Positions 20,272-35,490 of a stretch of DNA of 54,692 nucleotides are shown piece after piece. The stretch is from Planctomycetota bacterium. Its GTDB lineage: Bacteria > Planctomycetota > Phycisphaerae > WQYP01. The notes under the pieces are model-generated. The model had not been told where the DNA came from. It saw only the letters and a list, made by a program, of their open reading frames with translations, and searched no databases. Location: NCBI GenBank assembly GCA_021785435.1, contig JAJYFE010000008.1, forward strand, positions 1 to 54,692. Reading direction: 5' to 3'. Every line of letters starts with the position of its first letter. Position 1 is the first letter of the stretch. The position numbers were made by a program, and so were the translations under genes.

Positions 20272-23200
20272 ATGGCTGGACAAGAGATGGGACCGCCGAC
20301 GACTCAGCGTGCGTATACCCTTCGGCTGCACGGCGTGGACAGGAATGACAACTCGTGGCGCGACGCGTTGTGGGCCACCCATGAGGCGGTGAACAATGGA
20401 GCCAAAGTCTTCGGCGATTGGCTGCTGACCCTGCGCGGCGGGCTTGACCACACGCTGGTGGACGCGAAGGTGTCCCAAGGAAAAAACAAGTCAGATCGCA
20501 ATCCCACCACCGAGGAGCGCCGGGACCGTCGCATCCTGCTGGCACTGTCGTGGTTGAGTGTCGAGTCCGCCCCGAGGGACGATGACGCATACAAGGCGTT
20601 CGTCATCGCCAGTGGAAAGGATGATTCCCAATCGGGCCGCAATGAGAAGGTGATGGGGGGGTTTCGTGACATTCTCTGCAGGAGGGGTGTGAATGGCGCC
20701 GACTTTGACGCGTGGGTCAGGGACTGCGAATTGTCGCTTTCAGCGGCGATCCGCGAGGACGCAGTGTGGGTCAATCGGAGCGCGGCGTTTGACGTCGCCG
20801 CCAAGGAGTGTCCGGGGTTGACCCGCGATGAAATCTGGGACTTTCTCGGACCGTTCTTTGGGGGTCCCGAGTCATACCTGCTTCCCGCGAGGTCTGAGGC
20901 GGGTGTTGAGGCCGGCGGGGGAGCGCCGGGAAAAGAAGACAAGGCCAAGGATCTTGTCCAGAAGGCTGGCAGCTGGCTGAGCAGCCGTTTTGGGAGCGGC
21001 AAGGGCGCGGACTTCGGACGTATAAAAAAGGTGTGTGAAGCGATTGCCAAGTGGGCAGAGGATCAGGTAAATGGTGCCTCAGGTTATGCGTCAGGCCGCG
21101 ACGCGCTCGCTTCGCTGGCCGCTTCGCTCGCCGGGTTTCGGCCGTCCACCAATGACGCCGACGGTATTTGTGGTCTCATCAGCGGTCCCGGCTACAAAAG
21201 CGCGACGCGTAACAGCATCGCCGCGTGGACGCAGGCCGGCGGGGTTACCGCTCAAGCGCTACGTGAGCTGGCCGAAACCGCTAGGAAAGATGCTGACAAA
21301 TGCGGGGATAAAGTCGATGGCAAAGGCCCACGCCCCTACGCGAAGATGATCATTCAAGGGGTCGAGGCCGCGTGCGGTTTCCCCTACCAGAAGGCGGGCG
21401 ACCCGGCCCGGCACCAGGAGTTTTCCGTGATGCTCGACCATGCCGCCCGGCGAGTAAGTGTGGCCCATTCCTGGATTAAAAACGCCGAGGCCGAGCGTCG
21501 TCAATTTGAAGCCGACGTCCGGAGATTCCACGAGGTTCCGCCCGATGCGAAGGCGTGGCTCGACTCATACTGCAAAGGTCGGACGAAGAGTTCGGGGGCG
21601 GTCGAGTCGTATCACATCCGCAGACGGGCAATCGGTGGCTGGGAACAAGTCGTCGAGCGCTGGTCACGCGGCGGCTGCGAGACGGCGGATGACCGCATTG
21701 CCGCGGCGCGCGGTCTCCAGGCCGATCCGGAAGTCGACAAATGTGGTGACATTCAGCTCTTCGAAGCTCTTGCGGAAGACGACGCGATGTGCGTCTGGCG
21801 GGTGAATGGTGCGGCGAATGCCGAACCTTTGATTCGCTACGTCGCCGCCGTCGCGGCCGAGGCCAGACAACGCCGGTTCAAGGTTCCCGCCTACCGCCAC
21901 CCGGACCCGCTGGCGCACCCCGTCTTCTGCGATTTCGGTTGCTCCCGCTGGAAAATCGATTTCGCCGTCCACGCCGCGGCTTGCAAATTGGATGGCGCTC
22001 AAGCACAAGACCGGCGTAGACGGGCTGAGAAAGGCCAGGCCGAGGATAGCCTTGGGGCGGCTGAAAATGCCCTCGCATGGCTGTCCTGCCGCCACGCTAC
22101 CACAATGACGTTATGGAACGGTCACGCGTTTGGCAGCCGCCTCCAGCTCCGATGGTCATGCAAGCGTCTGACCAAGGATATGGCCCTGCGGGATGCTGTT
22201 GTTCCGACCGCGGTCCCGGTCACTCGTGCTGATCGTCTGGGCCGCGCGGCCGCCGGTGTATCAGCCGACTCGTCCGTCCGTATTCGTAACGTGTTTGAAG
22301 AGGATCATTGGAACGGTCGCCTGCAGGCGCCGCGGGCGCAGCTTGACGCCATTGCCAAACGCGTGGCCAGGTACGGTTGGGACATGAAAGCCGAGCAGAT
22401 GCGCAGCCGCATCCGCTGGCTGGTTTCCTTCTCCGCGAAATTGCGGCCCGACGACGGCCCATGGGTCCGCTACGCCAAAATATTTCCGGGCGACGCTCCT
22501 GACAAACCTTTTGTCTCCCGCAGGGGCGAGTATGCCGTCAAACACCAAAGCAATGACTCGCGCCAGGGCCGCGCTAAGTTGGTCCTCGCCCGTCTGCCTG
22601 GTCTGCGCGTTCTTTCCGTGGACTTGGGCCACCGCTTCGCCGCCGCGTGTGCCGTGTGGGAAACCCTCACCGCCGAACAGGTAAACATGAGGTGCGAAGA
22701 GGCGCGGCACGCTCGGCCCGCGGAAAGGGACCTGTACCTCCATCTGGCTGGCGCGGGAGCGGGTGGCAGGAAGCGCACGATCGTCTACCGCCGCGTCGGC
22801 GCGGATTACCTTGAAGTTGTCGATAAGCAGACCGGCGAGCTCAAGAAGGAGCCGCATCCCGCCCCTTGGGCGCGGCTGGATCGCCAATTCCTCATCAAAC
22901 TGCCCGGCGAGGAGCGACCGCCCCGCGCCGCATCGAGGAATGAAATTCAACAAGTCGCTGATTTTGCCAAACGACTCGGTTTGGCCGCGGACGATGAGCG
23001 GGGTTGCGGGCGTGCCGTAGATGAGCTTATGTCGCGCGCCGTGGGCGTTGCCACGCGCGGCCTGAAGCGCCACGCCCGGCGTGCCAAGATCGCCTACGCC
23101 CTTGATCCAAGCTTAAAGACCATCCCCGGCATGGGCGGCAATGAAAAGACCTTCACGCCCGGCGATGACGCCCATGTCGCATTCCTCACGGATGCCCTCT

Positions 23201-24888
23201 TCGACTGGCATGCCCTGGCCACAGAATCGAAATGGGACGATAAGTTCGCCCGCGAGCAGTGGAACGAGCACATCGCCGCGGTGGACAACGGCTGGCCGGT
23301 CGCCCGCGATGAGGGCGCCGAGGGACCAAGCCGACAGCAGCGCCGCAAGAACGATGACGCCCTCCGCCAACGGCTCGGGCCAATTGCCGAGCAGCTGGCC
23401 AAGGTTGATCGGGCCGGCATGCACAAAGCTTGGAAGGAGCGCTGGGAAAAGGATGACGGTCAAGAAGCCGTCGTTTCTGCTGTTCCGAAGGATCAAAAGG
23501 GTCCGGCGAAGACATTGGTCGGCAGTCCAGCCACGGGGCTGCATGCCGATCTGCGCTGGCTCACGGACTGGATCATGGGCAAATATCTGGCCGGTGCGGA
23601 AGGCCCCGGCTGGAAGCGGAACGTCGGCGGCCTGTCCGTCACCCGCATCGCCACGATGAAGTCGCTCTACCAGTTGCACAAATCCTTCGCCATGCGTGCC
23701 CGTCCCGACAAGCCGTGCGGTGCGCCGGAGAAGGGTGAACCGAACACGCGCGTCGCGCAATCCATTCTCGACGCGATGGAGCGTATGCGCGAGCAGCGGG
23801 TTAAGCAATCGGCCAGCCGCATTGTCGAGGCGGCACTTGGCGTCGGCATTGAGCGTAACCGTGCTTGGGATGATCTGAAAAAAAAGTGGCGATATCCCGG
23901 GCGCCCACGTGGATTGCTCTGCCCCGCTGGCACCAAGGGCATCGTGCAAGGTGACCCGCGGTTTAAAACCTGCCACGCCGTCGTCATCGAGAATCTCACC
24001 AACTACCGCCCTGACGAAGTACAGACTCGCCGCGAGAATCGCCAGCTCATGGCCTGGTCGTCCAGCAAGGTCAAGAAATATCTCTCGGATGCCTGCCAGC
24101 TTCACGGCCTGCACCTGCGCGAAGTCCAGGCCGGCTACACCTCGCGCCAGGATTCCCGCACCGGCGCGCCGGGAGTCCGCTGCGCCGACGTGCCCGTACA
24201 CGAATTCATGACCGCTTCCTGGTGGCGAAAGCAGGTCAACGCCGCTAAAAGGAAAAAAGACGAGAAAACTGGCGGCTCCGCCCGCGATCATTATCTTTTG
24301 AGACTTGATGGGGAATGCAGAAATGTTCCGGCGGAAACGTGGAGGGATCGGCGCCCGCTGCGCATCCCCGTAAGCGGCGGGGGACTCTTCGTTTCGGCGT
24401 CGCCGTGTGGCTGCTGCAAGCGAGAAGATTCCAAAAGTGCGCCAGCCTTGCAGGCCGATCTTAACGCCGCCGCCAATATCGGGTTAAAGGCTCTGTTGGA
24501 CCCCGATTGGCCCGGCGCGTGGTGGTATGTTCCCTGCGATTCCGCTACCTACAAGCCGCATGCCGAGAAAATCAAGGGGAGTGCCGCGGTTGATTGCAGT
24601 ATCCCACTTGTCCAAGCGACGGATGCGATCTCGCCGGAGGCTTCTAATAGCGGAGGAGAAAAGGCTGTTCCCAAGGGATCTGGCAAGAAGGAACGCGATA
24701 TTGTCAATCTCTGGCGCGCCCCAACGCACCTGCCAATCAACGGGCATGACTCGTCATGGCGTGGCTCCAAGGGGTATTGGAGCGATGTTCAGCGCCGGGT
24801 GGTGGAGGTTATCGACGGGCCACGTGACCTACCCGATCGCGCCGCGTCGGTGGGAAGGGGTATTGCATCCACGGACGTTCCGTGGTAA
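20272..24888 (+). CDS. cas12b-like: Cas12b-related (type V-B-like) CRISPR effector nuclease, unusually large (1538 aa)
   Basis: RuvC-I LRVLSVDLGHRFAAAC (D784); RuvC-II VVIENLTNY (E1240), followed by ENRQLMAWSSSKVKKYLSDACQLHGLHLREVQAGYTSRQDSRTGAPGVRC, which closely matches the AacCas12b segment ENNQLMQWSHRGVFQELINQAQVHDLLVGTMYAAFSSRFDARTGAPGIRC; RuvC-III LQADLNAAANIG (D1396). N-terminus WRDALWATHEAVNNGAKVFGDWLLTLR resembles Cas12b. SD GGAGG before ATG. Followed by tracr candidate and array. Confidence 0.92.
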   Translation: MAGQEMGPPTTQRAYTLRLHGVDRNDNSWRDALWATHEAVNNGAKVFGDWLLTLRGGLDHTLVDAKVSQGKNKSDRNPTTEERRDRRILLALSWLSVESAPRDDDAYKAFVIASGKDDSQSGRNEKVMGGFRDILCRRGVNGADFDAWVRDCELSLSAAIREDAVWVNRSAAFDVAAKECPGLTRDEIWDFLGPFFGGPESYLLPARSEAGVEAGGGAPGKEDKAKDLVQKAGSWLSSRFGSGKGADFGRIKKVCEAIAKWAEDQVNGASGYASGRDALASLAASLAGFRPSTNDADGICGLISGPGYKSATRNSIAAWTQAGGVTAQALRELAETARKDADKCGDKVDGKGPRPYAKMIIQGVEAACGFPYQKAGDPARHQEFSVMLDHAARRVSVAHSWIKNAEAERRQFEADVRRFHEVPPDAKAWLDSYCKGRTKSSGAVESYHIRRRAIGGWEQVVERWSRGGCETADDRIAAARGLQADPEVDKCGDIQLFEALAEDDAMCVWRVNGAANAEPLIRYVAAVAAEARQRRFKVPAYRHPDPLAHPVFCDFGCSRWKIDFAVHAAACKLDGAQAQDRRRRAEKGQAEDSLGAAENALAWLSCRHATTMTLWNGHAFGSRLQLRWSCKRLTKDMALRDAVVPTAVPVTRADRLGRAAAGVSADSSVRIRNVFEEDHWNGRLQAPRAQLDAIAKRVARYGWDMKAEQMRSRIRWLVSFSAKLRPDDGPWVRYAKIFPGDAPDKPFVSRRGEYAVKHQSNDSRQGRAKLVLARLPGLRVLSVDLGHRFAAACAVWETLTAEQVNMRCEEARHARPAERDLYLHLAGAGAGGRKRTIVYRRVGADYLEVVDKQTGELKKEPHPAPWARLDRQFLIKLPGEERPPRAASRNEIQQVADFAKRLGLAADDERGCGRAVDELMSRAVGVATRGLKRHARRAKIAYALDPSLKTIPGMGGNEKTFTPGDDAHVAFLTDALFDWHALATESKWDDKFAREQWNEHIAAVDNGWPVARDEGAEGPSRQQRRKNDDALRQRLGPIAEQLAKVDRAGMHKAWKERWEKDDGQEAVVSAVPKDQKGPAKTLVGSPATGLHADLRWLTDWIMGKYLAGAEGPGWKRNVGGLSVTRIATMKSLYQLHKSFAMRARPDKPCGAPEKGEPNTRVAQSILDAMERMREQRVKQSASRIVEAALGVGIERNRAWDDLKKKWRYPGRPRGLLCPAGTKGIVQGDPRFKTCHAVVIENLTNYRPDEVQTRRENRQLMAWSSSKVKKYLSDACQLHGLHLREVQAGYTSRQDSRTGAPGVRCADVPVHEFMTASWWRKQVNAAKRKKDEKTGGSARDHYLLRLDGECRNVPAETWRDRRPLRIPVSGGGLFVSASPCGCCKREDSKSAPALQADLNAAANIGLKALLDPDWPGAWWYVPCDSATYKPHAEKIKGSAAVDCSIPLVQATDAISPEASNSGGEKAVPKGSGKKERDIVNLWRAPTHLPINGHDSSWRGSKGYWSDVQRRVVEVIDGPRDLPDRAASVGRGIASTDVPW

Positions 24889-24985: not shown

Positions 24986-25178
24986 TTTGACATCTGAGGA
25001 TGCGAGCGCGGCGGTGCTGCGGGGGGGGGCCGGGGTGCTCGCGTGGTCGGAAACGCCTGCCAACAGCGGCTTCTGCAGCTCCGGTGTGGGAGGTTGCGCC
25101 ATGCGTGGGATCTCCAAACAGTCGTCCTCGCGTTCCCGGCCCCAAACCGGCGGGATCAAAGGGGTTACAAGGGCTGCT

Positions 25179-27507
25179 GTAGCGCTCCCCGCAGCGAATT
25201 GAATCGGCTGACACGTATTCCCGGTCGGCTTCGCCTACGCCGGACTGGTAGTAGCGCTCCCCGCAGCGAATTGAATCGGCTGACACACATATATCAACCC
25301 GTCTGTGTTCACGCCGATCCGCGTAGCGCTCCCCGCAGCGAATTGAATCGGCTGACACTTTACTCATGGGTTTATCCCCCGAAAAAAAAAACGTAGCGCT
25401 CCCCGCAGCGAATTGAATCGGCTGACACGATGCGCACCAGGCATCCCGCCTGCTCCTTGCGGTGGTAGCGCTCCCCGCAGCGAATTGAATCGGCTGACAC
25501 CGCCTTTCCCGTAATCACTCAGAGAGGTCAATCCGGTAGCGCTCCCCGCAGCGAATTGAATCGGCTGACACAATCTTTCACGGCCAAGCCGATGCTGCCC
25601 GATGGGGTAGCGCTCCCCGCAGCGAATTGAATCGGCTGACACTGCGCGCAGGCACTGTAGGCGCGTACTTATCTACAGTAGCGCTCCCCGCAGCGAATTG
25701 AATCGGCTGACACACCGCCATTTCGTGGGGCGTGTAACCCTTGAGTGCGTAGCGCTCCCCGCAGCGAATTGAATCGGCTGACACGTGGATGGCGATGCTC
25801 TCCGGCAACGCGAGAACATGGTAGCGCTCCCCGCAGCGAATTGAATCGGCTGACACAACCAGAATGTGATGTACCAGCGGGGCGCCGCGGGTGTAGCGCT
25901 CCCCGCAGCGAATTGAATCGGCTGACACAACGCCCCCATCTCCGCCGGGTCCGGTGGTGCAAAGTAGCGCTCCCCGCAGCGAATTGAATCGGCTGACACG
26001 AAAAACTGCTGGTATCCAAGCGAAGGCTGGCGGCGTAGCGCTCCCCGCAGCGAATTGAATCGGCTGACACAGCAGGACGCGATCCCCGGCCACGGTGGTG
26101 ACGCCGGTAGCGCTCCCCGCAGCGAATTGAATCGGCTGACACCTCCGTCGGAGAAATTCTGGATTGACGGCGAAGAAGTAGCGCTCCCCGCAGCGAATTG
26201 AATCGGCTGACACGTTCATCACCAAAAGATATACAATTGTTGGCGGAGTAGCGCTCCTCGCAGCGAATTGAATCGGCTGACACTGTACATATGTCCATCT
26301 ACTTCACCGGTAGGGTATAGGTAGCGCTCCCCGCAGCGAATTGAATCGGCTGACACGTCCCTATGATTTTAGTAGGTGATGCCGATGGATGATGTAGCGC
26401 TCCCCGCAGCGAATTGAATCGGCTGACACACTGCCTCCATGGGCGGTTGTGACGCTTTACATCCGTAGCGCTCCCCGCAGCGAATTGAATCGGCTGACAC
26501 GCCTTGACAATGCGGGCACGAACGGCATCCCCCTGGTAGCGCTCCCCGCAGCGAATTGAATCGGCTGACACGGAATAGTCCACCCATGTGACGACCTTGA
26601 AGATCGCGTAGCGCTCCCCGCAGCGAATTGAATCGGCTGACACTTAGCGCCGATACAGCCTGTGCCCCCGCCCCCCGCGGTAGCGCTCCCCGCAGCGAAT
26701 TGAATCGGCTGACACCTCGGCCCACACGGACGGCAGACAGCTGCGGCGCGGTAGCGCTCCCCGCAGCGAATTGAATCGGCTGACACGTGCCGGGGAACAA
26801 CGGCAGGACTTGGCCTTGCCATCGTAGCGCTCCCCGCAGCGAATTGAATCGGCTGACACAACGGCCCCCGTGGATTGAACGGCACGGGGAAAAACAGTAG
26901 CGCTCCCCGCAGCGAATTGAATCGGCTGACACCGCGTCCATCACGTGACCTCAGACCTTAATATCGACGTAGCGCTCCCCGCAGCGAATTGAATCGGCTG
27001 ACACGTCATCGGCGTTGAACCCGCGGGCAACAACGTCGGAGTAGCGCTCCCCGCAGCGAATTGAATCGGCTGACACCTGCCCCGCGGCAGTATTGATGGC
27101 AATTTTCGTGACGTAGCGCTCCCCGCAGCGAATTGAATCGGCTGACACTAGATGGTTTAGATGCTAAAACTGATGTATCCAGTGTAGCGCTCCCCGCAGC
27201 GAATTGAATCGGCTGACACCACATATCCTTAAGGAATTCCATGATAGTGTAATGTAGCGCTCCCCGCAGCGAATTGAATCGGCTGACACTCATTTCTTGC
27301 ACCGGTAAATCATGGAGCATGGATAGTAGCGCTCCCCGCAGCGAATTGAATCGGCTGACACTAGGACGCTCCCTGACGGTCGCGGCTCGGTGTCGGGGTA
27401 GCGCCCCGCGCGGCGAATTGAATCGGCTGACACTTTGCAACGGCCGCGGGATTGCGATCCGCGCGGCTGCGGTAGGGCTCCCCGCAGCGAATTGAATCGG
27501 CTGACAG
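25179..27507 (+). CRISPR. CRISPR array: 33 repeats of 36 bp, 32 spacers of 34-38 nt
   Basis: Repeat GTAGCGCTCCCCGCAGCGAATTGAATCGGCTGACAC at 25179, 25251, 25323 ... 27326 (period about 71-72). The repeat at 26248 has one C>T. The last two (27398, 27472) are degenerate, so the leader is at the effector side. Confidence 0.98.
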
Positions 27508-27772
27508 AAGCACCCGGCGTACGGGCCGCCGGGCTAACCGGGGGTGGCGCTGATCGCATCGTCGATGGGGGCATCGGCGGCTACGTGGCGCTGGGGGCGG
27601 GGCAGCGGACGGGGGCGTCGGTTCTGGCCGCGGCCAGGGGAACTACGGATCACACGGGTCTACACCGATTCTTAACCGCGAGATACGCGAAAACGCGGAA
27701 GTGATTTTGGGAGGCACTACAGCCCTTGTTCTTCCGTTGTTCCCGGCTTGGCCCGGCGTTAGAATTTCCATC

Positions 27773-30700
27773 ATGGCATCGTCGGACCTGACCTTCATCA
27801 CGAACGAACCGGGCGGGACGTTGCGGCAGCGTTTCGCGGACCTGTTGGCCGCCGACACCAGCCGGTTCGACTGCCTGGTGGGCTATTTCTTCATCAGCGG
27901 CTTCCACAAGCTCTACCCCAGTCTCGAAAAGGTCGAAAAGATCCGCATTCTGGTGGGCCTGCGCACGGACGGCAGCGTCTGGGAGCTCCTGCGGGACGCC
28001 AGGGAACCGCCGGGCGTACTGCCGCCATCCCACGCGAGCGTCCGGGAACACGTGCCTAAAGACATGCTCCAGGAATTCGACACAGCCCCCTATACCGCTG
28101 AAGTGGAGGCCGGCGTCGGGAAATTTACCGAGTGGATCCGCTCCGGCAAGCTGGAAATAAAAGCCCACCCCTCCGAAAGGCTGCACGCCAAGTTGTACAT
28201 CATGACCTTCCGCGAAGGTGACCGGGACGCTGGCCGGGTCATCACCGGCTCCAGCAATCTCACGGAATCAGGCCTGGTGGAAAACCTGGAGTTCAACGTT
28301 GAACTGAAGAACCATTCGGATTACGACTTCGCCCTGGGCAAATTTAACGAACTCTGGGCGGCCGCGGTGGACGTTTCCAGGCCCTGCGCGGACGCCATAC
28401 TCCAGCAATCCCCCTATGCGCCCTTCACGCCCCACGAGCTTTACCTGAAATTCCTTTACGAATATTTCCGCGGCGAGCTCAACCGTCCCGCGGACTCGGA
28501 CGATCTCGGCGTTCCGAGGGGATTCAAGAAGCTGCAATACCAGGAAGAGGCCGTGCTGACCGCCAGGAAAATCCTCGAGGAATACGGCGGCGTGTTCCTG
28601 TCCGACGTGGTCGGCCTGGGCAAAACCTACATGGCCGCGATGCTCGCCCAGCGCCTCGATGGACGTTCGCTGGTTCTCGCGCCGCCGCACCTTTTGGACG
28701 CTGATAATCCCGGCTCCTGGCGCAACGTTTTTGGCGATTTCGGTGTCCGCCAGTCCGAATTTGAATCCATCGGCACGCTCGACGCCCTCCTGCGTCGCGA
28801 CTTGGCAAAATACAAGAACGTCTTTGTCGACGAGTCGCATCGTTTCCGCACCGAAACCAGTCGGACCTATGAAACGCTCGCCCAAATCTGCCGAGGCAAG
28901 CGCGTGATCCTGGTCTCCGCCACTCCGCTCAACAACACGCCGGCGGACGTTCTCAGCCAGGTCAAGCTTTTCCAGAACGGCGCCAGCAGCACGATCCCTG
29001 GCGTCCGCAATCTGAATGCGTTCTTCGCCAAGCTTCAGAGCAAGCTCAGGGGTCTGGACCGCCAGCACCATCGCGAGGCCTATTTGAGCGCTGTTCAGGC
29101 CAATGCGAAAGCCACCCGTGAAAGCGTTCTGAAATACCTGATGGTGCGCCGCACCCGTACCGAAATCACCAAATACTACGGCGAAGATCTCAGGCGGCAG
29201 GGCCTGGTGTTTCCCGAAGTGGCCGACCCGAAGCCACTCTACTACCAGCTCAATAAGGACGAAGCCGGTATTCTCAGCAGCACCATCCGATCGCTCACCA
29301 GCGACTTTAAATTCGCCCGTTACAAGCCGCTGCTTTATTTCGAGGGCGTGCGCGACGATCGCCAGCTGCAAGGCCAGCATAATCTCGCCCGCTTCATGAA
29401 AACCCTCATGGTCAAGCGGCTCGAAAGCAGCTTTCACGCCTTCCGGCTAACCCTGCGGCGTTTTATCAACACCTATGAGCGTGTGATCACCGAACTCAAC
29501 AAGGGCCATGTCTACATCAGCAAGGGATATATCGACAAGATCTTCGACCTGCTGGAATCGGACGACCCGCAGGCCGTTGAGGATTTGCTCGACGATGGCA
29601 AGGCCGAAAAGCTCGACGCCAAGGACTTCAATCCGGGCTTCCTGGCCGATCTGCAAAGCGATCGGGCGGTTCTGCGCTCCATCTATAGCCGGTGGGCGGG
29701 CGTCAAGCGCGATCCCAAATGGGAATCCTTCTGCGAAATCTTGCGCACCAATAAACAGCTAAAGCACGGCAAGCTCATCATCTTCACCGAGTCCCGCGAA
29801 ACGGCCGAATATCTCGCCGCCCGCATCGCCAGCGAGGTGGAGAAAAAAGTCCTGCTTTCCACCAGCCGTTCCGATGAAGCGGCCTACCGCCAGGTCACCG
29901 ATAATTTCGACGCCCGGGCGCTCCATCCAAAAGATGATTACCGCATCCTGGTCGCGACCGAGGTGCTTTCCGAGGGCGTCAATCTTCATCGCTCCAACAT
30001 CGTGATCAACTACGATATTCCCTGGAATCCCACACGGCTGATCCAGCGCGTCGGCCGCGTGAACCGTGTGGGGACCGGATTTGACACCATCTATACTTAT
30101 AATTTCTTTCCGACTGATGAGGGCAACGATCTCATCAAGCTGAAGGAGGCCGCCGAGGCTAAAATCCGCGCGTTCATCGAGATGCTTGGTAACGACGCCC
30201 GGTTGCTCACCGACGGCGAGGAAATTAAATCGCACGACCTGTTTTCCAAGCTCAACTCCAAAGCCACCCTCACCGGCGAAGATGAACAGGAGGAAACGGA
30301 ACTCAAATACCTCAGCGAAATCCGGGAAATCCGTGATAAAAACCCGGAGTTGTTCGCCCGTGTGAAACGCCTGCCTAAAAAGGCCCGTTCCACCCGCCTG
30401 ATCGGCGAAACCGCCGCCCCCGCCCGGGTGCGGCCACCGGCGCTGCTGACTTATTTCCGCCAGGGTCGGCTTGACAAGTTCTATGTCACCGGCCCCGGCG
30501 ACGCAGCCGCCGCCGAGCTTGATTTCATGTCCGCGGCGCGCCTCCTCAAGCCCGCTGAGGTGAAGGAACCGCTGCAGAAAATCGGCGGCGATTTTTACCG
30601 TCTGCTCGACAAAAACAAGGCCGCGTTTGAGGCCGCGACGAGCGCTGAGGCCGAGGAAGCCGCCTCCAGACCGGCCGGCGCCAACGACGCCTACATTCTC

Positions 30701-30988
30701 CGGCGCCTTCGCGCCCGTGAAATCCGGGGCTACGACGGCTTCACGGAAGAGGATGAAGCGTTCATCCAGCAGGTCATCGGGCACCTGTCGGACGGCGCCC
30801 TGCCAAGGAGCACGACCAGGAAAGTCGCCGGCGCTTTGCGCAGAGAGGCCGAACCGCTCAAGGTTCTGGGCATTCTGCGCCGTGATATACCGGAGCTGCT
30901 GCTGCAGCCCACTCGCGCCCAGCAGGCCGCCGGCACCGCCAGTCCGCGGGAAGTTATTCTTTCCTCCATGCTGCTGGAGGCACCATGA
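27773..30988 (+). CDS. PLD-like nuclease domain fused to SNF2/DEAD helicase (defence-type)
   Basis: N-terminal PLDc: RLHAKLYIMTFREGDRDAGRVITGSSNLTESGL. Helicase motifs VVGLGKTYMAAMLA, VFVDESHRFR, ILVSATPLNN, NYDIPWNPTRLIQRVGRVNRVG. Confidence 0.85.
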   Translation: MASSDLTFITNEPGGTLRQRFADLLAADTSRFDCLVGYFFISGFHKLYPSLEKVEKIRILVGLRTDGSVWELLRDAREPPGVLPPSHASVREHVPKDMLQEFDTAPYTAEVEAGVGKFTEWIRSGKLEIKAHPSERLHAKLYIMTFREGDRDAGRVITGSSNLTESGLVENLEFNVELKNHSDYDFALGKFNELWAAAVDVSRPCADAILQQSPYAPFTPHELYLKFLYEYFRGELNRPADSDDLGVPRGFKKLQYQEEAVLTARKILEEYGGVFLSDVVGLGKTYMAAMLAQRLDGRSLVLAPPHLLDADNPGSWRNVFGDFGVRQSEFESIGTLDALLRRDLAKYKNVFVDESHRFRTETSRTYETLAQICRGKRVILVSATPLNNTPADVLSQVKLFQNGASSTIPGVRNLNAFFAKLQSKLRGLDRQHHREAYLSAVQANAKATRESVLKYLMVRRTRTEITKYYGEDLRRQGLVFPEVADPKPLYYQLNKDEAGILSSTIRSLTSDFKFARYKPLLYFEGVRDDRQLQGQHNLARFMKTLMVKRLESSFHAFRLTLRRFINTYERVITELNKGHVYISKGYIDKIFDLLESDDPQAVEDLLDDGKAEKLDAKDFNPGFLADLQSDRAVLRSIYSRWAGVKRDPKWESFCEILRTNKQLKHGKLIIFTESRETAEYLAARIASEVEKKVLLSTSRSDEAAYRQVTDNFDARALHPKDDYRILVATEVLSEGVNLHRSNIVINYDIPWNPTRLIQRVGRVNRVGTGFDTIYTYNFFPTDEGNDLIKLKEAAEAKIRAFIEMLGNDARLLTDGEEIKSHDLFSKLNSKATLTGEDEQEETELKYLSEIREIRDKNPELFARVKRLPKKARSTRLIGETAAPARVRPPALLTYFRQGRLDKFYVTGPGDAAAAELDFMSAARLLKPAEVKEPLQKIGGDFYRLLDKNKAAFEAATSAEAEEAASRPAGANDAYILRRLRAREIRGYDGFTEEDEAFIQQVIGHLSDGALPRSTTRKVAGALRREAEPLKVLGILRRDIPELLLQPTRAQQAAGTASPREVILSSMLLEAP

Positions 30989-33900
30989 ACCGTGAGCAGG
31001 CCCGCGGCCTCGTGCGGAAGACCTTTACCCAGTCCTTCGACAAGGGCCGGTTTGGGGAGTTCATCCAAAATCTACTTAGCCATGTCGATGGCGACAAAGC
31101 TTTCGGCTGCAACAGCCAGTATGTGAAGGACGCGTTCAAGAGCCACGTCCACCGGTATGAGCGCCTGGGAACCTACACCGCCCCGGACAACCGCAAGGCG
31201 GATATCCTCGTCGTTGAGCTTACCCATGGGTCCAAACTTACCCGCGCCCGTACCGCCCTGCGTAATTTTGTGGCCGATTATCTCAACGGGCGTGGCAAGA
31301 AAGATGCCGCCCTGGTCGGGTTTGTTTCGCCGTCGGAGGTCGCCTGGCGTTTTTCCTACGTCAAAATGGAATACGCGACTGTTGAAAAGCCATCGGGCGA
31401 CATCGGTACTGAAACACGTTTGACCCCGGCCCGGCGCTTTTCGTACATTGTCGGCCCGGGCGAAAGCTGCCACACCGCGCAAACACGCTTCGTTGATCTT
31501 CTGCAAAACACGCAAACCGACCCGCAGCTGACGGAGATTGAAGAAGCCTTCAGCGTGGAGGCCGTTACCAAGGAATTCTTCGAACGGTACAAGGAGTTTT
31601 TCCTTGCGGTAAAAGTTGAACTCGACAAAATCGCGGCGGGCGATAAGACCGTGGGCGCGGAATTTGCCGCCCGGAAGGTCAGCACCATTGATTTTGCCAA
31701 GAAACTGATGGGCCAACTCGTCTTCCTCTATTTCCTCCAGAAAAAAGGCTGGCTCGGCGTGGCCAAAGACGCCCCCTGGGGCACCGGCCCGCATAATTTC
31801 CTGCGGAAGCTCGCCAGCGGCGATTATGGCCAACGGAAGAACTTTTTTAACGATGCGCTCGAACCGCTCTTTTACGATTCCCTGGCCACGGATCGCGGGC
31901 ACGAGGCATTTTGCGAACAGTTCAATTGCCGTATCCCATTTCTGAATGGCGGCCTGTTTGAGCCGCTGAACAATTACGATTGGCGCAAAACCGAAATCCT
32001 GCTGCCCAACCGCCTGTTCACCAATACCGATACCGACCCCGCTGAAGAGGGCATCACCGGCACCGGTATCCTGGATGTGTTTGACCGTTACAACTTCACC
32101 GTCAATGAAGCCGAGCCGCTGGAAAAGGAAGTCGCCATCGACCCCGAAATGCTCGGAAAAGTGTTTGAAGGTCTGCTGGGCGTCAGGGAGCGCAAATCGA
32201 AAGGTTCCTTCTATACCCCGCGTGAAATTGTCCATTACATGTGCCAGGAAAGCCTGATTAACTATCTCGACACGGCAATCAATGGTGGCACAGACATTCC
32301 TGTCCGTAACCCCCCAAACCACCAAGGTGCTCCAGGCATTCCTGTCGGCACACCGGCTCAGGGTGAAACAGGCATTCCGGCCTGCGTTTCAACCAACCAA
32401 GGTGGCACAGACATTCCTGGCTCTGTTTCATCCGCGGAAATTCACAAAACCAACCGCAATCTGCCCCATTGGACCAGAGAAGGATCAGTCTATTGGATCA
32501 CGTTCCGGCTCGCCGATTCCATGCCACAGGAAAAACTGAATGCCTGGCGGGCGGAACGGGAAATCTGGCTCGAGCAACACCCCCAGCCGTGGAGTGATGA
32601 GGATTGGAAACAATACGACGAAAGTTTAGGCGAGCGCCTGCAATCGTGGCTTGATGCCGGATACGGTTCATGCGCCCTTAGGCGGCCCGATGTCCGGCAA
32701 ATTGTGCAGGACTGTCTGCTTCGCTTCGACGGCCGGCGGCTGTGGCTCCACGCCGCGGTCATCATGCCCAATCACGTCCATTTGCTTCTCGAACCCGTTG
32801 CCGGTAACGAATTGTCTGAACTCCTCAAGGGCATCAAAGGTGCAAGCGCCCGCAAAGCCAACCAAATCCTGGGTAATACCGGGGCTGCCTTTTGGATGGA
32901 CGAATCATACGACCACATTGTTCGCAGTGAGCGGCAGCGTCAACACTTTATCCGCTACATCATGGAAAATCCTGTCAAAGCGAAACTGCCCGCCGGCCAG
33001 TATTGGCTCCACCAAGGTGACACAGGCATTCCTGCCTGTAAATCACAAACACAGACAGGAATGTCTGTGCTACCACAAACACAGACAGGAATGTCTGTGC
33101 TACCACAAACACAGACAGGAATGTCTGTGCTACCACAAACACAGACAGGAATGTCTGTGCTACCACGAACACAGACAGGAATGTTTGTGCTACCACAAAC
33201 ACAGACAGGAATGTCTGTGCTACCACGAACACAGACAGGAATGTCTGTGCTACCACGAACACAGACAGGAATGTCTGTGCCACGTTGTGACATTGAAACG
33301 TTCATCCACGAAGGTGACCGGATTGCGGATTATGACGCCGTTAAGGCCAACCATGGCATTAAGTTGCCCGCCGCCGTAAAAACCAACGCCCGGCTATTGG
33401 ATGAAAAACTCGCCGCGATCACCGTGTGCGATCCCGCCATTGGATCGGGCGCTTTTCCGGTGGGCATGATGCAGGAGATTGTCCGCGCCCGCTCCGCATT
33501 GACTCCGTATTTCAACGACACCCATGAACGCACCCCGTACCATTTCAAGCGCCACGCCATTCAGAACTGCCTCTATGGCGTAGATATCGACCCCGGCGCG
33601 GTGGAAATCGCCAAATTGCGGCTGTGGCTTTCACTAGTGGTGGATGAAGAAGATGTGCACCAGACCAGGCCACTGCCCAATCTCGACTACAAAGTGGTCG
33701 CCGGCAATTCCCTGCTGGGTTTTCCATTCAGGTCGGAACGCCTGCGGAAAATTGAGGAGCTCAAAGCCCAGTTTTTTGGAGAGACCAGCCACGATGTTAA
33801 AACGCGACTGAAGGCGGAAATCGATGGCCAGCTATCGCAGGCCTTCGCCAACTCGAAACGCAGCCTGGGTTATGCGGTGAACTTCGATTTTCGAACCGTA

Positions 33901-35112
33901 TTCTCCGAAATTTTCCACAGAAAAGGCGGCTTCGATGTCGTCATTGGCAATCCGCCGTACCTCTTCGCGCGAAACAGCAAGGAAAAAGGAATCACAGCAG
34001 CCGACAAACAAATATACCACGACGCGTACAAGCTCGCCCAATACCAAGTAAATTTATATCCGCTGTTCATCGAAAAAGGCACCAGCATATTGAGGGACCG
34101 AGGCAGCTTTGCATTCATCACGCCGAATAACTGGCTAACGATCAACACCAACGGATTGCTGCGGCAGTTTGTTCTTGGCCAATCCGAGGTCACAATTGTC
34201 AATTTTTTCGCCCGCATGTTTGCCAGCGCGGATGTTGACAGTTCAATTATCATTTACAAGAGGTCCGGGGAAAAACGGCGCATAAAACTCTTCGAATTCA
34301 GGACTGTCCTGGAATTCGTCACGGAGACCGATTGCGATTTTTTTCTGCAACAACGAGATTCGATCATAAATATCGACGCACAGAAGGGCGGCCGTGTTGC
34401 CGCGTTGACGGGGAAAATCGAATCGCAGGCCGACCGGCTCAGGGACGCTGCCGATGCCAAGGTAGGGCTCGGGGCCTACGGTCTTGGGCGGGGCATCCCT
34501 CCGCAAACCGAAGAGATGATTAGGAACCGAATATACCACTCCACAAAGAAAGCCTCACCCGACCACTACAGGTACATAGACGGGAGGGACGTGTGCAGAT
34601 ACCGCGTTGGCTGGTCCGGGGAATTCCTGCAATACGGCGACCACCTCAGAGAGCCACGACGGGACTGGAAGCTCTTCTCCTCGAAGCGCATCCTTGTGCG
34701 CCAGATTCCGGCAAATCCGCCCTATTGTATTCACGCTTGCATCGTCGAGGAAACACTCCTCAATGACCGCAACTCAATGAACATCGTCAACTTCCGCGAG
34801 CCGCCAGAGCTTGTTCTGGGCATTGTAAACTCGCGGCTCACATCGTTCTGGTTCGTCCACAAATTCGGCAAAATGCAGCGGCAGACGTTTCCACAATTCA
34901 AGGTCAACGAGCTCGCGGAATTCCCGCTGCCCCGTGGGAGGAACCAACGGCAGGACGAAATAATCCCTCTCGTTGAGAAGATTCTATCGGCGAAACGCGA
35001 CGACCCTGAAGCGGATATCAGCGCCATGGATCGAAAGCTCGACCAGATTGTGTATGAGCTCTATGGCCTGACTCCGGAGGAAATTGCGATTGTGGAGGGG
35101 GCGGTAAAATAA
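30985..35112 (+). CDS. Eco57I/TaqI-like N6-adenine DNA methyltransferase (restriction-type) with an in-frame RAYT insertion
   Basis: Overlaps the helicase stop. FYTPREIVHYM, then after the insertion TVCDPAIGSGAFPVGMM (SAM motif I) and FDVVIGNPPYLFARN (NPPY); C-terminal specificity-like region. Confidence 0.85.
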   Translation: MNREQARGLVRKTFTQSFDKGRFGEFIQNLLSHVDGDKAFGCNSQYVKDAFKSHVHRYERLGTYTAPDNRKADILVVELTHGSKLTRARTALRNFVADYLNGRGKKDAALVGFVSPSEVAWRFSYVKMEYATVEKPSGDIGTETRLTPARRFSYIVGPGESCHTAQTRFVDLLQNTQTDPQLTEIEEAFSVEAVTKEFFERYKEFFLAVKVELDKIAAGDKTVGAEFAARKVSTIDFAKKLMGQLVFLYFLQKKGWLGVAKDAPWGTGPHNFLRKLASGDYGQRKNFFNDALEPLFYDSLATDRGHEAFCEQFNCRIPFLNGGLFEPLNNYDWRKTEILLPNRLFTNTDTDPAEEGITGTGILDVFDRYNFTVNEAEPLEKEVAIDPEMLGKVFEGLLGVRERKSKGSFYTPREIVHYMCQESLINYLDTAINGGTDIPVRNPPNHQGAPGIPVGTPAQGETGIPACVSTNQGGTDIPGSVSSAEIHKTNRNLPHWTREGSVYWITFRLADSMPQEKLNAWRAEREIWLEQHPQPWSDEDWKQYDESLGERLQSWLDAGYGSCALRRPDVRQIVQDCLLRFDGRRLWLHAAVIMPNHVHLLLEPVAGNELSELLKGIKGASARKANQILGNTGAAFWMDESYDHIVRSERQRQHFIRYIMENPVKAKLPAGQYWLHQGDTGIPACKSQTQTGMSVLPQTQTGMSVLPQTQTGMSVLPQTQTGMSVLPRTQTGMFVLPQTQTGMSVLPRTQTGMSVLPRTQTGMSVPRCDIETFIHEGDRIADYDAVKANHGIKLPAAVKTNARLLDEKLAAITVCDPAIGSGAFPVGMMQEIVRARSALTPYFNDTHERTPYHFKRHAIQNCLYGVDIDPGAVEIAKLRLWLSLVVDEEDVHQTRPLPNLDYKVVAGNSLLGFPFRSERLRKIEELKAQFFGETSHDVKTRLKAEIDGQLSQAFANSKRSLGYAVNFDFRTVFSEIFHRKGGFDVVIGNPPYLFARNSKEKGITAADKQIYHDAYKLAQYQVNLYPLFIEKGTSILRDRGSFAFITPNNWLTINTNGLLRQFVLGQSEVTIVNFFARMFASADVDSSIIIYKRSGEKRRIKLFEFRTVLEFVTETDCDFFLQQRDSIINIDAQKGGRVAALTGKIESQADRLRDAADAKVGLGAYGLGRGIPPQTEEMIRNRIYHSTKKASPDHYRYIDGRDVCRYRVGWSGEFLQYGDHLREPRRDWKLFSSKRILVRQIPANPPYCIHACIVEETLLNDRNSMNIVNFREPPELVLGIVNSRLTSFWFVHKFGKMQRQTFPQFKVNELAEFPLPRGRNQRQDEIIPLVEKILSAKRDDPEADISAMDRKLDQIVYELYGLTPEEIAIVEGAVK
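32285..33283 (+). mobile_element. RAYT (REP-associated HUH/Y1 transposase) element inserted in frame in the methyltransferase gene
   Basis: Perfect 20-bp terminal inverted repeats GTGGCACAGACATTCCTGTC (32285-32304; reverse complement at 33264-33283). Length 999 bp (333 codons). Encodes IMPNHVHLLLEP (HUH) and HFIRYIMENPVKAKL (catalytic Tyr) typical of RAYTs. Confidence 0.85.
33045..33283 (+). repeat. Tandem palindromic REP array, 8 copies, 30-bp unit
   Basis: ACAGACAGGAATGTCTGT (stem ACAGAC/GTCTGT) at 33051, 33081, 33111, 33141, 33171, 33201, 33231 and 33261. Confidence 0.95.
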
Positions 35113-35237
35113 AATTCGGCGAATTGTGCGCCGGCCAGGAGAAGGAACGAACGTCGGCGGACGTGGTGGGGCTTGGGGGCGGAGGTCTGAAGCCCGCTGA
35201 ACGCTTTGCGTGCTGGGCGGGGGCGCACGGCGGGGGG

Positions 35238-35490
35238 GTGGCGCTGGGCGCAGCGAATTGAATCGGCTGACACGTTACAACGGCCGCGGGATTGTGATCC
35301 GCGCGGCTGCGGTAGCGCTTCCCGCGGCGAATTGAATCGGCGGGCGCGTTGCGACGGCCGCGGGATTGCGATCCGCGCGGCTGCGGTGGGGCTCCGCGCA
35401 GCGAATTGAATCGGCGGGCACTAGGACGCTCCCTGACGGTCGCGGCTCGGTGTCGGGGTAGCGCCCCGCGCAGCGAATTGAATCGGCGGC
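35238..35490 (+). CRISPR. Degenerate secondary CRISPR mini-array (4 decayed repeats, 3 spacers)
   Basis: Repeats at 35238, 35312, 35386 and 35458 keep GCGAATTGAATCGGC. Spacer 35422-35457 is identical to main-array spacer 27362-27397. Spacers 35274-35311 and 35348-35385 are near-copies of 27434-27471. Confidence 0.85.

Follow-up and report, generated by a model that had tools for sequence, protein, structure and literature searches.

RAYTs (REP-associated tyrosine transposases) and REPtrons have been described by Nunvar 2010 (PMC2817692) and Quentin 2018 (PMC6006769): known RAYTs are stand-alone genes that lie between REPs, and transposition of a REPtron as one unit is said not to occur. REPs that are in frame inside the RAYT genes themselves have been described (PMC6006769); the same study put a few proteins of unexpected length down to gene fusion or faulty annotation and left them aside. 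Short in-frame REPs are also known in genes that include those of tRNA synthetases, and dispersed cognate REPs are usual but not universal, as REPtrons without a REP family have been reported (Di Nocera 2013, PMC3733652). The element analyzed here has the HUH and tyrosine residues of described RAYTs, its gene is likewise enclosed by inverted REPs with a GTGG head, and its best fold match is PDB entry 4ER8; it differs from them in that the complete unit is embedded in the reading frame of a different enzyme. Searches of open-access papers found no description of an entire RAYT within a host enzyme, and residence of this kind is apparently a widespread, undescribed habit.

The window is a stretch of 54,692 nucleotides from a Planctomycetota bacterium whose genome is labeled G000; the other G, L, and C labels denote the genomes, loci, and contigs compared. 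An earlier note on this DNA had placed a 999-bp RAYT element at 32285–33283, within a DNA methyltransferase ORF that reads through the element in frame. The position, the length, and the read-through were confirmed, with the ORF running from 30985 to 35112 without a stop. The features of the locus are as follows.

27701–30988, + strand: PLD plus SNF2/helicase ORF, 1095 aa (PADLOC HKD+Snf2, DrmD-like), upstream partner of the IIG gene
30985–35112, + strand: type IIG restriction-modification gene, 1375 aa including the insert (PDLC03596, E 6e-252; Eco57I; TaqI_C)
32285–33283, + strand: whole RAYT/REP element, 999 bp, in frame with the IIG host gene
32285–32308, + strand: left end REP, GTGG head plus imperfect palindrome
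32326–32426, + strand: three more left-side REP copies (32326, 32362, 32401), in frame, copy number genome-dependent
32434–33015, + strand: RAYT domain, ∼194 aa, best fold match 4ER8
32773–32781, + strand: HUH motif H-V-H, both histidines invariant (n = 18 RAYTs)
32956–32958, + strand: predicted catalytic tyrosine (RYIMENP), invariant (n = 18 RAYTs)
33016–33041, + strand: REP copy immediately 3' of the RAYT, in direct orientation relative to the left REPs
33044–33283, + strand: inverted-REP array, eight units with a 30-bp period, the last unit being the right end (GACAGGAATGTCTGTGCCAC)
33430–33459, + strand: host methyltransferase motif I (DPAIGSGAFP), intact 3' of the insert
33949–33960, + strand: host methyltransferase motif IV (NPPY), intact 3' of the insert

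Methyltransferase motifs are indeed present in the host protein, but it is not the lone methyltransferase of the earlier note. PADLOC calls it REase_MTase_IIG (E 6e-252), and this type IIG match spans the whole host protein outside the insert, with methyltransferase motifs I and IV and the specificity domain in one chain. In Pfam and NCBIfam scans, the Eco57I and TaqI_C matches are confined to the host part of the ORF, and those to Y1_Tnp (Pfam) and REP_Tyr_transpos (NCBIfam) are confined to the insert, which lies between motif X (FYTPREIV) and motif I. The last 4 bp of the helicase ORF are also the first 4 bp of the IIG gene. The lack of stop codons claimed for the element holds in the host frame, in which a codon starts at 32284; when the element is read from 32285 itself, the second base of that codon, stops appear.

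The two ends of the element (32285–32307 and 33261–33283) are REPs in inverted orientation, each consisting of a GTGG head and CACAGACATTCCTGTCTGTG. These 23-nt ends are 96% complementary, and their outer 20 nt are perfect, in agreement with the 20-bp terminal inverted repeats noted earlier. The count of eight REP units also stands for the 30-bp units of the right-hand array, one of which has a mismatch; it does not cover all REPs of the element, as five more degenerate copies in the opposite orientation begin at 32285, 32326, 32362, 32401, and 33016, for a total of ∼13. The same genome has another IIG gene copy that has diverged to 63% identity (L061, G000:C55:1–2097) and begins at the contig end within REPs.

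CRISPR features lie on both sides of the helicase and IIG genes. A Cas12b of 1538 aa (window 20272–24888, + strand; NF033949, E 4e-283), which exceeds the family model by ∼300 aa, is followed downstream by an array at 25161–27400 that contains 33 copies of GTAGCGCTCCCCGCAGCGAATTGAATCGGCTGACAC with spacers of 34–37 nt. The repeat of this array recurs in degenerate form at 35225–35490, just downstream of the IIG gene, so the helicase-IIG operon (27701–35112) seems to be inside or beside an older array.

The HUH and tyrosine motifs that the earlier note had read in the insert (PNHVHLL and RYIMENP) are present, and their predicted catalytic residues (the HUH histidines H114 and H116 and the one catalytic tyrosine, Y175) are invariant across 18 RAYTs. 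The best match by both profile and fold is TnpArep, a REP transposase bound to a REP hairpin (PDB 4ER8), and the curated RAYT model NF047646 is matched with an E value of 1e-18 and 67.5 bits against a curated cut-off of 80. The RAYT gene is flanked by GTRG-headed REPs in inverted orientation. Within the draft genome G000, the REP family of the element was found only in the two IIG gene copies (C215 and C55) and not dispersed, so no current spread elsewhere is visible. The element is named a RAYT by the sequence and fold of its predicted protein, with local REPs only. We also considered whether a REP palindrome that is stop-free in all six frames represents a special adaptation; this idea was rejected, as a 24-mer is open in this way by chance in ∼10–15% of cases (a rough estimate), and the six-frame openness is only compatible with adaptation.

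In an AlphaFold model of residues 380–1110, the RAYT had a pLDDT of ∼95, and the linkers encoded by the REPs were mostly below 45. The methyltransferase part of the same model was poor, owing to the small number of host sequences that could be aligned. No intein or Hint/self-splicing family occurred among the Pfam matches of the IIG window protein, and Rfam showed no RNA family or intron in the IIG gene.

When genomes of the same family were aligned, three states were found at one point of the IIG gene: an empty site (G011 and G007), short REPs only (G027 and G019), and a RAYT (G000, G018, G014, G012, and G016, the last allele ending at a contig end). The corresponding DNA interval measures 87 bp when empty, 189 bp with REPs only, and 849–1065 bp with a RAYT, and the frame is kept throughout, which is partly by construction, as the alleles were taken from open frames. 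The RAYT core is 555 bp in every RAYT allele of this site, whereas left REP copies range from one (G018) to several (G014) and right copies from one or two up to eight (G000). The residues of the insert are not conserved in this alignment; their conservation in all homologues is what the earlier note had named as speaking against an insertion. As judged from these aligned alleles, the element is shown to be an insertion in the IIG gene, and the earlier proposal of a tolerated in-frame protein insertion is supported.

The age of the RAYT at this site was assessed from synonymous divergence. Between G000 and G018, which belong to different genera, dS was 0.15 for the RAYT compared with 1.45 and 1.34 for the upstream and downstream host parts, respectively. 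In 30-codon windows, pS was 0.04–0.27 over most of the insert and 0.60 just outside it on both sides. Overall, synonymous divergence was ∼0.14 in the RAYT and ∼0.63 in the flanks (∼19/139 versus 445/707 differences, counts approximated from the rates; p about 5e-28). In the G000–G012 comparison, the RAYT had a host-like pS of 0.39–0.82 in most windows, showing that it is not intrinsically slow. The genome with the upstream host part nearest to that of G000 is G011, whose site is empty. An AU test on the upstream host part did not reject G000 and G018 as sisters (p 0.166) with a poorly resolved host tree; for this reason, it is how deep the synonymous divergence is, and not tree conflict, that serves as the basis of the lateral claim. 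This evidence says that the RAYT, by its synonymous divergence, moved laterally at the IIG site after the host genes diverged and is much younger there than they are. The patchy presence of the RAYT could also stem from recombination among host alleles. In the IIG comparisons, the RAYT dN/dS of 0.16–0.30 shows purifying selection on the predicted transposase protein. The host dN/dS is about 0.1, a value that covers a history longer than that of the insertion and so is not by itself proof of activity since then.

A profile of the 18 RAYTs (A1) was then compared with 296 genomes of the class (Planctomycetota, Phycisphaerae-like) at an E value of 1e-20 or better. Among the 110 RAYT matches listed, 76 had a surrounding frame that was free of stops for at least 450 aa, and in 63 it reached at least 700 aa; in the sample of the rest of the phylum, 13 of 67 matches were in frames of at least 450 aa. 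Across 79 embedded RAYTs, there were 0 stops per insert in the host frame versus 3.5–8.5 in each of the five other frames, a difference which shows that the open frame is not due to chance. Pfam scans of the long ORFs named as hosts ValS, LeuS, IleS, PurH, GcvP, ThiDE, ETF, RdgB, a RarA-like AAA protein, a DinG-like helicase, a DUF1156 methylase, MmeI, Type ISP, and a PLD-SNF2 helicase. Hosts in other phyla or classes were CarB, MetH, CCA/poly(A) polymerase, the exonuclease VII large subunit (XseA), adenosine deaminase, HsdR, and a FabA-like protein. A common host function was considered and rejected, as the hosts are too diverse. A scan of viral contigs found no relatives of the IIG host enzyme.

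Several of these loci have features of their own. Another RAYT of the window's genome, with a different REP family, is in frame inside a DUF1156 DNA methylase (L041, G000:C182, 1307-aa frame). In three genomes (L057, L063, and L196), a RAYT is joined in frame to the C terminus of ThiD2-ThiE, a terminal and not an internal fusion. Very long in-frame REP arrays lie beside the embedded RAYTs of L209, L051, and L185 (e.g. the DHRRDACATPGEEG repeats of PurH), which suggests that REPs have expanded locally inside coding regions.

RAYTs clustered by host gene on the RAYT tree, with 45 changes for 32 labels versus 95 when shuffled. The identities of RAYT and host were correlated in LeuS (rho 0.82), which looks like vertical descent, and in the IIG enzymes (0.81), where the RAYTs are more alike than their hosts; no such correlation was found in ValS, IleS, or DUF1156. 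Long vertical residence and lateral movement thus both seem to occur. Related RAYTs also occupy different sites in homologous enzymes, as in two sites of IleS and in L093 from Ignavibacteria, where a RAYT of the same clade as that of the window lies at a different place in the homologous enzyme.

Essential tRNA synthetases recur among the hosts. The main insertion site in ValS is directly before VATTRPET, most LeuS copies lie before RVYTTRPDTLFG, and four IleS copies lie before LLVWTTTPWT; we take these to be equivalent positions, where the editing domain begins. ValS alleles that carry only REPs at the same place were found in L086 and L091. In nine tested genomes with a RAYT-ValS, one of which is a single contig (G263), all ValS matches were at that single locus, and the KMSKS and TTRPET motifs were intact in 8/8 RAYT-ValS checked. 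As ValS is essential and the RAYT-ValS is the only copy in these genomes, a functional enzyme must be made from the interrupted gene. From the open frame, we infer that ValS probably works without removal of the insert.

Based on the above results, the element is quite probably a mobile RAYT that, together with its REPs, is translated as an inner domain of a host enzyme that still works. The REPs, stop-free in the host frame, would encode low-complexity linkers between which the RAYT would fold as its own domain, in a surface loop or at a domain boundary such as that between motif X and motif I of the IIG enzyme. Promoter, start, and stop would come from the host gene, and the RAYT would keep its HUH/Tyr nuclease, with the fusion presumably translated and the host enzyme active. 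REPs left in a host gene may mark the landing site of a RAYT, which could arrive by RAYT-catalyzed single-strand transfer or by recombination between REPs; the outcome would be a homing-like spread without a splicing step.

Co-option of the RAYT as a nuclease or DNA-binding domain that is kept for the benefit of the host and inherited mostly vertically is consistent with the grouping of RAYTs by host gene, with the tracking of hosts by the LeuS RAYTs, with the retained HUH and Tyr residues, and with the fact that DNA or RNA is the substrate of many hosts. Such domestication is nonetheless unlikely, as PurH, GcvP, ETF, MetH, and CarB are also hosts without a common function, RAYT presence is patchy among close relatives, the RAYT is younger than its own site in the IIG gene, and the position of related RAYTs varies between homologous enzymes. 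Restoration of the host product by splicing of the RNA or protein, or by precise excision at the DNA level, follows a principle known from inteins, the RAYT is flanked by direct REPs, and REP-only alleles could be leftovers of loss. These alleles, however, retain 102 bp over the empty site, so that RAYT loss would not be precise; a host frame without stops, against 3.5–8.5 in the others, would be needless if RNA or DNA were spliced; and with neither an intron in Rfam nor an intein-type family in Pfam for the IIG gene, removal of the insert is quite improbable.

A dead IIG gene, its open frame a coincidence of a recent event, might be expected of dispensable restriction-modification genes, the more so with a diverged copy at G000:C55, yet it is very improbable given that the frame and host motifs are intact, that the RAYT allele is open in five genomes with RAYT pS of up to 0.5 between them, and that essential genes show the same pattern. 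Although the assemblies are mostly metagenomic, it is extremely improbable that two adjacent genes were misjoined by assembly or annotation, as both flanks align to one protein and the junctions recur across many genomes that were assembled independently, as well as in the single-contig G263 and G069.

Residence of a translated RAYT within a working enzyme would bear on two open questions, the persistence of RAYTs and their possible movement as units; on the latter, the sharp drop in synonymous divergence at the borders of the insert is evidence of unit movement. Transposases inside bacterial genes are usually read as gene-killers, but here they are in frame in ValS, LeuS, IleS, PurH, and others, and the single-copy RAYT-ValS makes the idea of a transposase as a domain of an essential enzyme directly testable. 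In Planctomycetota and Verrucomicrobiota, many proteins with the look of a transposase fusion may be genuine. We give an even chance to the broader proposal that protein-resident RAYTs have a distinct and widespread lifestyle, in which they home between REP-marked host genes and persist, unspliced and translated, inside essential enzymes that the host cannot carelessly silence or delete.

Among known systems, type IIG enzymes of the Eco57I/TaqI_C type differ from the host protein of the window by the RAYT domain that separates motif X from motif I in the latter. Inteins with homing endonucleases are mobile, reside in frame in proteins that are conserved and often essential, and have a patchy distribution and lineages tied to host and site. 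Embedded RAYTs are likewise in frame, site-specific, patchy, laterally moving, and grouped by host gene or site. Inteins, in contrast, have a self-splicing domain; none was found by Pfam in the IIG protein of the window, and the nuclease of the embedded RAYTs is a Y1 HUH transposase, with an insert that seems to stay in the protein. We read embedded RAYTs as putatively translated, intein-like lodgers in which no splicing domain was found; the element is only compared with an intein and not classed as one, since its predicted protein has no match to a Hint or self-splicing domain. Intragenic REPs (PMC3733652) and Rickettsia palindromic elements also place in-frame palindromic repeats in working genes, some of them for DNA repair or tRNA synthetases, but these are short peptide repeats (∼20–30 aa) without a transposase, whereas the embedded elements contain a full transposase domain and show lateral movement.
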